Positions 26,974 to 32,773 of a stretch of 64,000 bases of DNA are shown here, one piece after another. Within the stretch, counting starts at the first letter, position 1. Every line of letters starts with the position of its first letter. The DNA is from Solwaraspora sp. WMMA2065 (GTDB lineage: Bacteria > Actinomycetota > Actinomycetes > Mycobacteriales > Micromonosporaceae). Location of the stretch: contig NZ_CP128361.1 in assembly GCF_030345075.1 (NCBI RefSeq), forward strand, positions 4,712,001-4,776,000. Reading direction: 5' to 3'. Position numbers and translations under genes: made by a program. The notes below the pieces were generated by a model. The model did no database searches and was not told the DNA's origin. It was given only the letters and a program-made list of their open reading frames with translations.

Positions 26974-27606
26974 ATGGAGATGGAGTACCGGGACCGCCGC
27001 GACGCAGGGGAGCAGCTGACCGGGCAGCTGGCGCAGCTGCGGGGACGACCGGACGTTGTCGCCCTCGGGCTGTTGCGGGGCGGGGCACCGGTCGCGGCGG
27101 TGATCGCCGACCAGCTCGACGTGGCGTACGACGTGCTGGTCATCCGCAAACTCGGCCTGCCGTCGGCGGCCGAGGTCGCCTTCGGCGCGATCGGGCCGGG
27201 CGGGGTGCGGGTGCTGAACCCGGAGATCGCCGACCAGCTCGACCCGGGACAGATCGCCCGGATAACCGCCGAGGAGACCATTGAGTTGCGCCGCCGCGAG
27301 CAGCTGTTCCGGGGCGACCGGCCGCCGCTGGACCTACATGGCCGGACCGCCGTCCTGGTTGACGACGGGTTGGCCACCGGCGCGTCGGCCCGGGCGGCGG
27401 TCGCGGTGAGTCGAAGCCTCGGTGCGGACCGGGTGGTGCTGGCGGTGCCGGTCGGCTCGGCCGAGGCGATCGCCACGCTCCAAGCCGTGGTCGACGAGGT
27501 CGTCTGCCCCCTGCGACCGACGGACTTTCGCGCCGTCGGTCGTTACTACCAGGATTTCCACCAGGTGTCCGACGACGAGATCGCCGCGTTGCCAGTCGGC
27601 AGGTGA
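26974..27606 (+). CDS. Phosphoribosyltransferase-family protein
   Basis: A 210-residue type I PRTase-like protein. The PRPP-binding loop is AVLVDDGLATGASARAAV near residue 130, preceded by ALGLLRGGAPVAAVIADQL and VLVIRKLGLPSAAEVAFGAIG, the hallmark of the broad actinobacterial group annotated only as phosphoribosyltransferase. It lacks the flanking motifs that would identify adenine, uracil or orotate enzymes. Substrate is unknown. A -10-like ACACCT precedes the ATG closely. Confidence 0.9.
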   Translation: MEMEYRDRRDAGEQLTGQLAQLRGRPDVVALGLLRGGAPVAAVIADQLDVAYDVLVIRKLGLPSAAEVAFGAIGPGGVRVLNPEIADQLDPGQIARITAEETIELRRREQLFRGDRPPLDLHGRTAVLVDDGLATGASARAAVAVSRSLGADRVVLAVPVGSAEAIATLQAVVDEVVCPLRPTDFRAVGRYYQDFHQVSDDEIAALPVGR

Positions 27607-27631
27607 GGATCGGAGCCGGTACCGTCGAGTC

Positions 27632-28000
27632 ATGCAGATGAACTGTCCCAAGTGTCACGGCGCCATGCGGCAGTACGAGCGCAGTGGGATCACCGTCGAC
27701 CAGTGCACCGAGTGTCGCGGCATCTTCCTGGACCGGGGCGAGCTGGAGCGACTGCTGGACGCGGAGGCAGCCTGGAACGGTGGTGCCGGCGGCCAGCAGT
27801 CGGGTCAACCACCCCGCCCGGCACCGAGTCCGGCCGGCGGTTATCCGCCGCCTCCGCCGCCACCGCCGGTGCACCATCAGCCCGGCTACCCGCCGCCGGC
27901 CCCGGCCTACCCGCCGGCTCCCGCGTACGGGCACCACGGCTACCACGGACACTACCGGCACAAGCGGCAGAAGAGCTTTCTCAACCAGCTCTTTGACTGA
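27632..28000 (+). CDS. TFIIB-type zinc-ribbon protein with Pro/His-rich tail
   Basis: The 122-residue protein starts with a zinc ribbon: MNCPKCHGAMRQYERSG, then VDQCTECRGIFLDRGELERLL, with the CPxC-x(n)-CxxC spacing of the zf-TFIIB family. A Pro/Tyr/His-rich tail follows (PPPPPPPPVHHQPGYPPPAP, and YHGHYRHKRQKS). TACCGT ends 6-7 nt before ATG 27632, so the message is probably leaderless. Such proteins are common and unassigned; a role in metal handling is only a guess from the His-rich tail. Confidence 0.85.
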   Translation: MQMNCPKCHGAMRQYERSGITVDQCTECRGIFLDRGELERLLDAEAAWNGGAGGQQSGQPPRPAPSPAGGYPPPPPPPPVHHQPGYPPPAPAYPPAPAYGHHGYHGHYRHKRQKSFLNQLFD

Positions 28001-28083: not shown

Positions 28084-30426
28084 TCAGATCGCCATGTCGA
28101 CGAACCGGGAGAGGTGCAGCTGGGCGGCGACAGTCACCGTGTCGGTCGGCCCGTTACGGTGCTTGGCGACAATGAAGTCCGCCTCGCCCGCCCGAGGCGA
28201 CTCCTTGTCGTAGTAGTCATCTCGGTGCAACAGAATGACCACGTCCGCGTCCTGCTCGATCGACCCCGACTCACGCAAATCAGACAATTGCGGCCGCTTG
28301 TCGGTACGCTGCTCCGGGCCACGGTTCAACTGACTGACCGCGATCACCGGGCACTCGACCTCCTTGGCCAGCAGTTTGAGCCCACGGGACAGATCCGCGA
28401 CCTCCTGCTGACGGCTCTCGGTGCGTTTCGGTGAGGTCATCAGCTGCAGGTAGTCGACGACGATCATTTTCAGGTCGTGCCGCTGCCGAAGCCGCCGCGC
28501 CTTGGCCCTGATCTCCATCAGGTTCATGTTGGGCGTGTCGTCGACGAAGAGCGGCGCCTCACTGATCTCGCCCATCCGACGAGCCAGCTTCGTCCAGTCG
28601 TCGTCGGAGAGCTGGCCGGAGCGCAGGACATGCAACGGCACCTTCGCCTCGGCGGAGAGCAGCCGCATGACGATCTCCACCTTGCTCATCTCCAGCGAGA
28701 AGATCGCGCTGGCGTGGCCGGCCCGGATCGCCGCGTTGCGGGCGAAGTCCATCGATGCGGTCGAGTTGTGCGTCGGGATCATCGTCCGGCCGGCGAGATA
28801 AAGATGGTCAGGGTTGTCCACGGTGACGCAGCGCACCGGCACGCTGCGGACCGGTCGGATCGAGGTGACCCGTCGCTGCTGGTCGTCATGAGTGTGGATG
28901 GTCACCGTGTAGACGCTGGACGGCGAGGTCATCCGGCCCTGGACGGTGCCTGCCGACACGGTGCAGTGCAGACCGAGGCTCGCCACCAACTCGCGTACCG
29001 TCTCAACCATCAGACGCGAAGTGGTCCGGTACTCGTCCAGCCCGCCGGGGTTGCGGGTGCCGGCGGTGTCCAACAGGCCGGTCAGCAGCGCCCGCCGCTG
29101 CCGCTCGGAACTGCGCAGGTACGCGTCGGGGATTCGCCGGTCGGCCTGGCGGTGGTCGGCAGCCGGGTCACCACCGGCAAGATCGACCCCCAACTGGTAC
29201 GGCGGCACCGGCAGGTCGTCGCGGTCGGGCAGCGCCAAGGCGTGGCAGTTCGTGACGGTGACCTCGGGGCGCTCCGCTGGTGACCGGTCGAGCAGGTCCA
29301 GGATCTCTTCGGTGGTCAGTACCTGGGTGGACCGTGCAGGTGCGGACTGGGCCGGTCGTGGCCCGGACCGGCCGGCCGACGCCAGAGCGGCCGAGACCGG
29401 CACCGGGGTGACAGCAGCCAGCGCCGCGCCGGCCGCTACCGGTACCGGCACGGCGGGCCGATGCGTCACCTGCCAGAGGTGGTCACCGTCGGCGACGATC
29501 ACCGAGCCGTCGGAGAACTCGACCTGGTAGGACCGCCCGCCGAGCAGGACGGCAGAGGTGCCGACGACCGTGGTGGGTCGACCGGTGGCGTCGAGTAGTC
29601 GGTCACCGACCACGACCTCACCCATGGTGGTCCAGCCGGTCGGGGTGGGCAGCGGGGTGTCCAGCGCCAACGCCTTGCCGAGGCCGGGTCGGCCGGCGAC
29701 GATGATCAACTGTCCGGGGTGCAGCCCGTTGAGCAACCGGTCCAGGTCAGTGAACCCGGTGGGCACCCCGGTCATCATGCCGGCCTGGGCACCTACCGCC
29801 TCGATCTCGTCGAGGGTCGGCTGCAGCATGTCGGCCAGGACCGCGAAGTCCTCGCTGACCCGCCGTTCCGTGACGTCGTATACCGCCTGCTGAGCGAGAT
29901 CGACGACGTCGTCGATGTCCCGGCCACCGCCGGCGGCCGAACCGTACCCGAGCTGCACGATCTTGGTGCCGGCCTCGACGATGCGGCGCAGCACCGCGCG
30001 CTCGGCCACGATCCTGGCGTAGTAGGAGGCGTTGGCCGCAGTCGGCACGCTTGCGATCAGGGTGTGCAGATACGGCGCACCACCGATCCGGCCGAGGTCA
30101 CCCGAGTTGGCGAGCGCGGCGGAGACGGTGATCGCGTCCGCCGGCTCGCCTCGCCCGTACAGGTCCAGCACCGCGTCGAAGACCGTGGCGTGGATCGGGC
30201 GGTAGAAGTCATGCGGTTTGAGGATCTCCACGACGTCGGCGATGGCGTCCTTGGAGAGCAGCATTCCGCCGAGGACACACTGTTCGGCGGCGACATCCTG
30301 GGGCGGCGTGCGGTCGAAGGGCTCACCGCCGGTGGGCGGACCGGGTGGCTTAACCGGTGGGCCGGGCGGGCCGGTCGGGCGGGCCGGTGGCCGGGGCTCG
30401 GTCTGCAGGTCGTCCGTGATGGACAT
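28084..30426 (-). CDS. dnaB: Replicative DNA helicase DnaB, interrupted by an intein
   Basis: The 780-residue precursor carries the replicative helicase in two exteins: residues 1-251 (N-domain and first Walker A residues, ending GRPGLGK) and 555-780 (STASMDFARNAAIRAGH, FSLEMSKVEIVMRLLS, IVVDYLQLM, PVIAVSQLNRGPE, GSIEQDADVVILLHRDDYY). Splicing would rejoin GRPGLGK with ST to complete GRPGLGKST. The mature protein would be about 477 residues. The 303-residue intein is listed separately. ATG 30426 follows a G-rich RBS. The N-terminus carries a 30-residue Pro-rich tail not seen in E. coli DnaB. The gene is the last of the rpsF-ssb-rpsR-rplI group, though 3.8 kb apart. Confidence 0.96.
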   Translation of the reverse strand: MSITDDLQTEPRPPARPTGPPGPPVKPPGPPTGGEPFDRTPPQDVAAEQCVLGGMLLSKDAIADVVEILKPHDFYRPIHATVFDAVLDLYGRGEPADAITVSAALANSGDLGRIGGAPYLHTLIASVPTAANASYYARIVAERAVLRRIVEAGTKIVQLGYGSAAGGGRDIDDVVDLAQQAVYDVTERRVSEDFAVLADMLQPTLDEIEAVGAQAGMMTGVPTGFTDLDRLLNGLHPGQLIIVAGRPGLGKALALDTPLPTPTGWTTMGEVVVGDRLLDATGRPTTVVGTSAVLLGGRSYQVEFSDGSVIVADGDHLWQVTHRPAVPVPVAAGAALAAVTPVPVSAALASAGRSGPRPAQSAPARSTQVLTTEEILDLLDRSPAERPEVTVTNCHALALPDRDDLPVPPYQLGVDLAGGDPAADHRQADRRIPDAYLRSSERQRRALLTGLLDTAGTRNPGGLDEYRTTSRLMVETVRELVASLGLHCTVSAGTVQGRMTSPSSVYTVTIHTHDDQQRRVTSIRPVRSVPVRCVTVDNPDHLYLAGRTMIPTHNSTASMDFARNAAIRAGHASAIFSLEMSKVEIVMRLLSAEAKVPLHVLRSGQLSDDDWTKLARRMGEISEAPLFVDDTPNMNLMEIRAKARRLRQRHDLKMIVVDYLQLMTSPKRTESRQQEVADLSRGLKLLAKEVECPVIAVSQLNRGPEQRTDKRPQLSDLRESGSIEQDADVVILLHRDDYYDKESPRAGEADFIVAKHRNGPTDTVTVAAQLHLSRFVDMAI
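28765..29673 (-). mobile_element. DnaB intein, class 3-type, with decayed homing-endonuclease remnant
   Basis: A 303-residue in-frame insertion (DnaB residues 252-554). It begins ALALDTPLPTPTGWTTMGE, so residue 1 is Ala rather than the nucleophilic Cys/Ser of class 1 inteins. It contains W67 (ADGDHLWQVTH), C282 (RSVPVRCVTVDNPDHLYLAG), T301 and the C-terminal THN, followed by Ser of the extein. The Trp/Cys/Thr set is the signature of class 3 inteins. The middle has only one LAGLIDADG-like motif (ALLTGLLDTAGT) and IPDAYLRSSERQRR; the first motif is missing and the linker is low-complexity (VPVPVAAGAALAAVTP...), so the endonuclease is probably inactive. Confidence 0.92.
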
Positions 30427-30856: not shown

Positions 30857-32773
30857 GTGGACTACCGGGAGTGGGAGTACGGCGACCGCCCTCCACGCGA
30901 GCGGCGGTCGGCTGCCCGGTGGCCCGACGACACCGATACCGACCCGGTCACACGCTCTCGTCGACCGCAGCGCTACGACCCGACCGAGGATGACGAGGCA
31001 CCACGCGGCCGGCGCCGCTACGAGGACCGACGCGGCCGCTACGAGGACCGACGCGACGGTGCGCGGCACCAGGCCGACCGGGGCAGCCCGGCTACGGACC
31101 GGTGGGCGCTGCCCGCCGGCCCGACCCCGCCAACAGGTGAGCCGGTCCATCGGGATCCGCCGGCTGGCCACGCCGGGCGGCACCGCGACGAATCGTGGCA
31201 GATTCCTGAGCAGCCGGTACGGGGCCGTCGGTCCCGTGACCGTCCGGCGCTGCCAGCGGCCGGGCCCGAGATCGACGCCCACGACTGGGACCGGCCTCGG
31301 CGGGCACCGGGCCGGCGCCGCGCGGCCGAGGACCCGATCTCCGGCAGCCCGGTGTCCGGCGATTCGGCGGGCTGGCGGCGTGAGCCGCCCGATAGTCGTT
31401 CCGGTCCGGTGTCGGGCGCAGGTCCGCTCGACCCGGACGGTCCAGCCACCGCGCCGCCCGCGACCTGGTCGAGCGCGCCAGCTCGATGGTCGACGCCGCC
31501 GAGTGATCCAGGTGACCCTGGTGACCGGGAGGGTTACGGCGGCCGCAGTCGCCGATCGTCTCGTCGTAGCGGCCAGCCGTCCGACGCTGACCGGCCCGGT
31601 CGCCGACGGCGCGACCGCGACGACATCCGGCGTCGCCTCGACGACGACCACGCTGCGCAGTGGCTACGCGACGACGAGCCCGCCAGCAGATGGTCCAGCG
31701 CGACGGACCACACCAGCGAATGGTCCCGGGATGCCGACCACACCAGCGAATGGTCCCGGGGTGCCGACCACACCAGCGAATGGTCCCGGGGTGCCGAGCG
31801 CACCGGCGGGTGGCCGCGAGGTGCCGAGCGCACCGGCGGGTGGCCGCGAGAGGCGGACCAGGCCGGGCGATGGGACCGGCCGGCCCGCCGCGAGATCGAA
31901 CCGCCCCGGCGGGAGTTCACCGACGAGACCGGCACCTGGCCGCGGGCCGCGTCCTCGCCGCGGGCGATCGGCGCGGGCCCGGCGCAGCCGCCCACCCGTC
32001 GGGCCCGGGAGTTGGGCCGCGGGGCGTACCGCCCGGAACCGGTCGACAGCTGGCGCGAGATCGGCGACCAGACCGATCAGTGGCACCGGGGCGACGACCC
32101 GGAGAGCTGGCCGGCCGGTAGCCGCACCGGGGCGCGCAAGAGACGCGCGGCCGAGGTCGGCGACGTCGCCGACGTCCTTCCGCCGGTCGATCCGTGGCCG
32201 CAGGTCGAGCCGGGCCGGGAAGGCACCTTCTGGTCGGGGACCCGGCTGGCCGCAGACGACCCCAGGTGGGTGGAGACGCCGGCTTCGGCACCCCGGTCAC
32301 CGATCGCCCTGCCGAGCGCGCCCCGCTCCCGGGTGCTGCCCGAGCAACGACCACGGCCGCGGTACGAGCCCCCGTCGCAGCGGCGGTTGACGTACCGGAT
32401 CGACGACGAACTGATCGACGCCGACCAGGGCGGCTATCTGTCCTCGCTGCTGTACACGGCTGCCTGGTACGCCCTGCCGGTGGTGGCGTTTCTGATCTGG
32501 AGCCTCACCCTGGACGGCACCCCGGCGACCAACGACTGCGTTCTCGGGGTGGACGGCGACTGCCTCTCCGCTCGGGCACAGGCGATCAACTCGCTACTGG
32601 CCGCTGCTCCGGCCTTCGCGTACGCGTTGATGATCTCGCTGGTCCTGGCGGTGACGATCAGGTGGGTCAGCGGCACGTGGCGCGCCTCGAGTGTCGGCCT
32701 GGCGGCGGCGGTGATCGGCGGCGGCATGTCGACCGTACTCGCCAGCGCTATCACCGGCCAACCGATCGGCTGA
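30857..32773 (+). CDS. Large charged protein with C-terminal membrane helices
   Basis: The 638-residue protein has about 520 residues of highly charged, low-complexity sequence (RRRYEDRRGRYEDRRDG, five tandem units like HTSEWSRGADHT), then a C-terminal hydrophobic part with three to four membrane helices (LLYTAAWYALPVVAFLIWSL, LLAAAPAFAYALMISLVLAV, SVGLAAAVIGGGMSTVLASA). GTG 30857 is the start. No signal peptide. It resembles other actinobacterial proteins with a long Arg/Asp/Trp/Ser-rich tail and a small membrane anchor near dnaB, but I do not recognise a named family. Tandem repeats inside are listed separately. Confidence 0.72.
   Translation: MDYREWEYGDRPPRERRSAARWPDDTDTDPVTRSRRPQRYDPTEDDEAPRGRRRYEDRRGRYEDRRDGARHQADRGSPATDRWALPAGPTPPTGEPVHRDPPAGHAGRHRDESWQIPEQPVRGRRSRDRPALPAAGPEIDAHDWDRPRRAPGRRRAAEDPISGSPVSGDSAGWRREPPDSRSGPVSGAGPLDPDGPATAPPATWSSAPARWSTPPSDPGDPGDREGYGGRSRRSSRRSGQPSDADRPGRRRRDRDDIRRRLDDDHAAQWLRDDEPASRWSSATDHTSEWSRDADHTSEWSRGADHTSEWSRGAERTGGWPRGAERTGGWPREADQAGRWDRPARREIEPPRREFTDETGTWPRAASSPRAIGAGPAQPPTRRARELGRGAYRPEPVDSWREIGDQTDQWHRGDDPESWPAGSRTGARKRRAAEVGDVADVLPPVDPWPQVEPGREGTFWSGTRLAADDPRWVETPASAPRSPIALPSAPRSRVLPEQRPRPRYEPPSQRRLTYRIDDELIDADQGGYLSSLLYTAAWYALPVVAFLIWSLTLDGTPATNDCVLGVDGDCLSARAQAINSLLAAAPAFAYALMISLVLAVTIRWVSGTWRASSVGLAAAVIGGGMSTVLASAITGQPIG
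31706..31855 (+). repeat. Five in-frame 30-bp tandem repeats
   Basis: Units at 31706, 31736, 31766 (near-identical, coding for HTSEWSR-D/G-A), then 31796 and 31826 (a diverged variant coding for RTGGWPRG/E). Length variation between strains is likely. Confidence 0.85.

Follow-up and report, generated by a model that had tools for sequence, protein, structure and literature searches.

The dnaB gene of Solwaraspora sp. WMMA2065 is interrupted within the Walker A motif of its product by several hundred in-frame residues. This raises the question of what the insert is, whether the helicase can be freed of it, and whether it still moves or responds to oxidation. The window analysed comprised 64,000 nucleotides of contig NZ_CP128361.1 (Table 1). 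Pfam matched the open reading frame to DnaB (2.3e-34) and DnaB_C (8.9e-99), the TIGR00665 score was above the cut-off, and Pfam and NCBIfam called DnaB on both sides of the insert. The ATG start is preceded by a G-rich stretch. Reading of the DNA bore out the original prediction to the base: the insert lies at 28765-29673 on the minus strand between GRPGLGK and ST, and the codons for Ala1, W67, C282, T301, the terminal HN and Ser+1 are all present. Residue 48 and the remains of an endonuclease, treated below, formed no part of that prediction. Neighbours of dnaB (window 26974-28000 and 30857-32773) were a phosphoribosyltransferase-domain gene, a TFIIB-type zinc-ribbon protein and a plus-strand open reading frame of 638 aa, for which Pfam gave no match. 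Our overall reading, held with high confidence, is that of a class 3 intein that is competent to splice, sits at DnaB site b and is inherited vertically in its genus, no longer homing by an endonuclease of its own and without a disulfide of the Cys48 type.

Table 1. Positions of the dnaB precursor gene, its exteins and the predicted functional sites of the insert in the window
Feature	Position	Strand	Remarks
dnaB precursor gene	28084..30426	minus	ATG start, 780 codons and stop; host protein of the intein
N-extein	29674..30426	minus	251 aa; its last residues, GRPGLGK, open Walker A
Class 3 intein, DnaB site b	28765..29673	minus	303 aa, exactly 303 in-frame codons
C-extein	28084..28764	minus	226 aa and stop; starts with Ser+1-Thr of Walker A
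Ala1 of the intein	29671..29673	minus	codon GCG; no nucleophile at position 1
Ser48 of the intein	29530..29532	minus	codon TCC; Cys in 166/173 distinct copies
Block B, D62..H65..W67	29473..29490	minus	DxxH and Trp of the WCT set; W67 codon TGG
Degraded first LAGLIDADG motif (presumed), YQLGVDLAGG	29170..29199	minus	full-length relatives: YTLGxWLGDG
Degraded second LAGLIDADG motif (presumed), GLLDTAGT	29056..29079	minus	full-length relatives: GLLDTDGT
Cys282, block F, predicted first nucleophile	28828..28830	minus	codon TGC; aligns with Cys of 6rix and 6bs8
Thr301-His302-Asn303, block G	28765..28773	minus	codons ACG CAC AAC

An insert of this size might be an extra domain of a normal DnaB, retained in the mature protein. 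It would then split Walker A, and its two ends carry the hallmarks of an intein. When 61 genomes of the family were searched with the C-extein, 59 gave matches at 1e-60, and the best 30 loci were read, among them that of the window and two more of its genus. The P-loop site was empty in 18, occupied in 10 and outside the resolution of the pattern in two; the empty loci passed directly from GRPGLGK to ST, one of them to SA. Comparison with intein-free dnaB confirmed the insertion point. The joined flanks (477 aa) were aligned to DnaB proteins from eight of the 18 empty loci; identity was 82-91 % over 455-477 columns, and the junction was gap-free in 8/8. Retention as a domain is contradicted by these empty alleles and so improbable that it can be set aside.

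Class 3 inteins have no nucleophile at position 1 and share a Trp-Cys-Thr set in blocks B, F and G, according to the accessible parts of PMC5050341, PMC7664689 and PMC6195587. The insert has Ala and thus none of Cys, Ser or Thr at position 1, and so does not qualify as class 1, which uses Cys1 or Ser1. W67 represents the Trp of block B, C282 the Cys at position 4 of block F and T301 the Thr at position 5 of block G, in alignment with 6rix and 6bs8; H302 and N303 are followed by Ser+1. The insertion lies in the P-loop between Lys and Ser, and DnaBi1 of Mycobacterium smegmatis is placed in the P-loop at "insertion site b" in the available text of PMC6195587. With phmmer, the 303 residues matched the solved structures 6rix (2.1e-35), 6riy (9.4e-35) and 6bs8 (3.7e-34); the matches fell on residues 1-83 and about 268-303, which form both halves of the splicing domain. 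TIGR01443, the model of the intein C-terminal splicing region, scored 17.8 bits on the same residues, the cut-off being 15.6. An AlphaFold model based on 52 aligned sequences had a mean pLDDT of 82.3 and a pTM of 0.80, with values below 50 for residues 1-15, the N-junction end. The HINT fold was present in this predicted model: Foldseek retrieved the LAGLIDADG intein PI-SceI (2.5e-11) as well as 6riy, 6rix and 6bs8 (6e-7 to 4e-6; TM by target 0.65-0.73). Judged by its sequence, the insert belongs to the class 3 inteins of DnaB site b, a type already known. The class assignment of the original prediction held, since the defining residues are present and the nearest matches among solved structures belong to class 3 DnaB inteins. 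Its statement that the class was first described in the DnaB of a mycobacteriophage agrees with a title naming the Bethlehem DnaB intein in a reference list, the part of the source available.

The closest characterized counterpart is DnaBi1 of M. smegmatis (6bs8; PMC6195587), which shares with the window intein the host DnaB, site b after the P-loop Lys, Ala1, DxxH, W67, the block F Cys, THN and Ser+1. DnaBi1 is a mini-intein of 139 aa, whereas the window intein, at 303 aa, includes a LAGLIDADG domain in degraded form; Arg46-Pro47-Cys48 of DnaBi1 stands against Gly46-Arg47-Ser48. The M. chimaera DnaB1 intein (6rix/6riy; PMC7664689) likewise is of class 3 with the WCT set; it was solved in a mini form with chains of 145-146 residues and has Cys at 48, unlike the window intein. 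A full-length DnaB-b intein of 407 aa in Spirilliplanes yamanashiensis (L050) agrees in site and splicing blocks and differs in its intact YTLGAWLGDG and GLLDTDGT, a cysteine-rich middle stretch and Cys48. More distant are class 3 inteins of phages and of a PhoH-like site (e.g., the terminase of Clavibacter phage CN1A; L234), in which the splicing blocks are recognisable but host proteins or sites differ. Among the 15 matches listed, phage relatives had 30-34 % identity over the intein.

In the class 3 mechanism as the accessible parts of PMC5050341, PMC7664689 and PMC6195587 describe it, the Cys of block F attacks, Ser+1 takes over and Asn cyclises. From the work on M. smegmatis and M. chimaera we infer the same chemistry for the window intein. 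Cys282 would attack the Lys-Ala1 bond at the N-junction and take up the N-extein as a thioester, the branched intermediate, from which Ser+1 would take it over. Asn303 would then cyclise with the help of His302, and rearrangement of the ester to a peptide bond would rebuild GRPGLGKST.

The original prediction had called such inteins rare, which is too strong for the DnaB niche. Protein matches with E up to 1e-3, weak ones counted, occurred in 138 of 300 genomes of the family, and the exact junction GRPGLGK/AL was found in the DNA of 96; the same pattern read backwards, as a control, hit two of the 300 (G012, G035). This kind of intein is known and common in DnaB of the family. In a phylum-wide sample, a profile at 1e-20 matched 23 of 296 genomes, the window's own included. 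Some of these matches lie at PhoH-like or other sites, PhoH being our reading of the flanking letters. Relatives are encoded in at least 221 stretches of named genomes, of which 80 were kept. The class is not limited to helicases: class 3 relatives also occur in phage genes annotated as terminases and at the PhoH-like site. Three DnaB-b-type class 3 inteins with Cys48 (L100 in G166, L220 in G570, L226 in G577) follow GK in proteins other than DnaB, which suggests, from the sequences, movement between host genes. In the host protein of L100 Pfam found endonuclease domains only and no DnaB domain; for the open reading frame of L226, perhaps in a wrong frame, Pfam gave no match.

Several loci were observed beside these. 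In Actinoallomurus purpureus, L046 (4001-4987) encodes a class 3-like intein that ends in Thr-Cys-Asn instead of Thr-His-Asn, with flanks APQK/TGKG read from the letters as a putative terminase Walker A; the place of Cys48 is taken by Thr. The C-extein of dnaB in G003 (L088) has a second insert after RESG that begins with Cys (CLTAATRL...), as would fit a class 1 intein at a different site. In L209 (G094) both ends of a site-b intein are recognisable and the reading frame breaks between them, by real decay or an assembly error. A second match in the window's own genome (L002; 34 %, residues 40-115, E 5.7e-4) was attributed to chance, no intein ends being found, and so was L090, with one stop inside and no intein ends found. 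TIGR01443 had five further matches in the same genome; two were examined, and both were pretoxin-HINT proteins. They are very large open reading frames at about 2.49 and 6.11 Mb of G000:C1 (L245, L246), one with Ntox27 and the other with DUF3990.

For the residue counts 175 copies were assembled, 173 of them distinct (two exact repeats) and nearly all in DnaB; L100, without a Pfam DnaB domain, was included in the 173. From L001-L113, 103 entered a first count. L002 and L090 (chance matches), L089 (from the genome of L088) and L046 (other site, TCN end) were excluded; L023, L026, L053, L057, L058 and L101, all with Cys48, stood outside the first 103 and inside the 173. Another 67 junction loci of the family had a closed intein in 66, and L209 (Cys48, broken frame) was excluded from the 175. 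The extraction patterns required G together with either Arg or an aromatic residue near position 14, the block F Cys and HN, or else Ala1 and PTHN. Conservation of Ala1, the block F Cys and HN is therefore partly by construction: Ala1, for which the patterns asked, was present in 173/173 distinct copies, the block F Cys in 173/173 (in L027 and L042 one place nearer the end), and THN, with HN required, in 173/173. W67, D62, H65 and residue 48 were free of this selection. D62..H65..W67 was found in 103/103 copies of the first set and 67/67 further family copies, and W67 in 173/173 distinct copies.

Full-length relatives of 400-509 aa typically carry the motifs YTLGxWLGDG and GLLDTDGT. The window intein has YQLGVDLAGG and GLLDTAGT, which we take to be the LAGLIDADG motifs, with the acidic residue of each replaced, so that two intact motifs as in homing enzymes are lacking. 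About 100 middle residues of the full-length form, the cysteine-rich stretch included, are absent as well. Of the 173 distinct copies, 107 matched both motif patterns, 21 matched one and 45 neither; decay of the motifs is thus common. The endonuclease of the window intein looks dead, its nuclease activity presumably lost with these residues. An active homing element would be expected to resemble LAGLIDADG inteins in its fold, as the predicted model still does, and Pfam LAGLIDADG_3 gave a weak match of 15.8 bits, below the cut-off of 22.5. Both altered motifs, the shortened middle part and the pattern of inheritance in the genus argue against a working endonuclease, which we consider very improbable.

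All seven genomes of the genus, that of the window among them, carry the intein with an open frame, and W, C, T, H and N were retained in every copy. In every part of the gene, pN was lower than pS in all seven genus pairs compared; dN/dS was 0.2-0.6 for the middle, 0-0.06 for the exteins and 0-0.39 for the two splicing ends. Among G000, G001 and G004, intein and exteins showed similar synonymous differences, which leaves a recent horizontal gain by the window species unsupported. Together, these values fit vertical inheritance of an element that is no longer homing, and from the sequences the intein looks vertically inherited in the genus.

Residue 48 sets the window intein apart. In M. smegmatis DnaBi1, oxidation joins Cys48 to the catalytic Cys118 and splicing stops, and seven replacements tested at 48, Ser among them, all abolished splicing, as stated in the accessible portions of PMC6195587; both cysteines are called "required" in those of PMC7360933. 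Cys48 was found in 96/103 copies of the first set, 67/67 further family copies and 166/173 distinct copies. The exceptions are Ser in six of the seven genus copies and Thr in Pseudonocardia humida (L048). All six Ser48 copies read Gly-Arg-Ser at residues 46-48, whereas the other 167 distinct copies have Arg46 in 166, Pro47 in 162 and Cys48 in 166; the seventh member of the genus, G003, has Ser-Thr-Cys. In a tree of the intein without residues 46-48 (17 rows), the six Ser48 copies grouped together (99/96) with G003 beside them, while a tree of the exteins (38 rows) nested G003 with G002 and G005 at middling support (91/75). This mild conflict on G003 could mean that Cys48 was lost twice, or an exchange; from the sequences, one origin of the loss in the genus is likely.

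The endonuclease region is degraded, and Ser48 equals a replacement that, by the available text of PMC6195587, abolished splicing in M. smegmatis. The window intein could thus be dead or nearly dead and the gene a non-functional dnaB; Ser48 could also mean poor splicing, unless compensated by other changes. DnaB_C matched three times in the single-contig genome of 6.74 Mb (99.4 % complete). Two of these matches are the halves of the window dnaB, and the third, which at 30.5 bits exceeds the cut-off of 27, spans 64 of the 255 positions; a second full DnaB was not found in this genome, and therefore the cell presumably needs splicing for growth. The strong constraint on the exteins in all seven pairs and the retention of the five splicing residues throughout the genus likewise oppose a dead intein, which we judge highly unlikely. 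Among more distant relatives, five phage class 3 inteins have, at the place of residue 48, Cys in three cases, Ser in the terminase of Clavibacter phage CN1A and Thr in a mycobacteriophage terminase, and two PhoH-like class 3 inteins have Ile. Class 3 chemistry probably does not demand Cys at this place, and splicing with Ser48 becomes plausible, less astonishing than the mutagenesis alone suggests.

With Ser at 48, Cys48 cannot pair with the block F Cys, hence the disulfide trap of the DnaBi1 type cannot form; we infer that this redox trap was lost in the window intein. A splicing intein might nevertheless be kept as a conditional replication switch like DnaBi1, sensing metals or oxidants by Cys282 alone or with Cys143 or Cys237 in place of Cys48. 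The accessible text on mycobacterial relatives describes inhibition by H2O2, zinc and reactive chlorine, with zinc binding the catalytic Cys itself, a residue retained here, and the presence in all seven genomes of the genus would suit a maintained function. Such persistence is predicted equally by a relic in an essential gene, however; the sole cysteine whose redox role has been demonstrated is replaced by Ser in the window intein, and Cys143 lacks an equivalent in the copies of G005 and G002, two of the seven from the genus. A switch of this sort is thus rather unlikely, though less so than a dead intein. For the splicing intein without the trap, a further reading can be offered tentatively and is in our estimation quite possible: the six species may represent a natural escape from the redox switch of DnaB inteins, in which Gly-Arg-Ser replaced the near-invariant Arg46-Pro47-Cys48, probably in a single ancestor, without loss of class 3 splicing. 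A search of the open-access literature found no paper joining a DnaB intein with Micromonospora and none pairing "class 3 intein" with "cysteine 48"; of nine listed on Cys48 and inteins, two concern this intein.

As an intein, the element is one more member of a well-populated family, and its useful part is the comparison at Ser48. Cys48 was labelled "non-conserved" by the authors in the available text of PMC6195587, which contrasts with its occurrence in nearly all distinct copies; the chief exception is the Ser48 clade. If the escape is real, Cys48, described both as required for splicing and as the redox partner, would be separable from catalysis, and related genera would harbour, at one site, redox-controlled and uncontrolled forms of a single intein. 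Normal splicing of the Ser48 intein would separate a catalytic from a regulatory role of Cys48 and provide a class 3 intein with possible tolerance of oxidation. The clade thereby bears on whether DnaB inteins are kept as stress sensors or are relics trapped in an essential gene.
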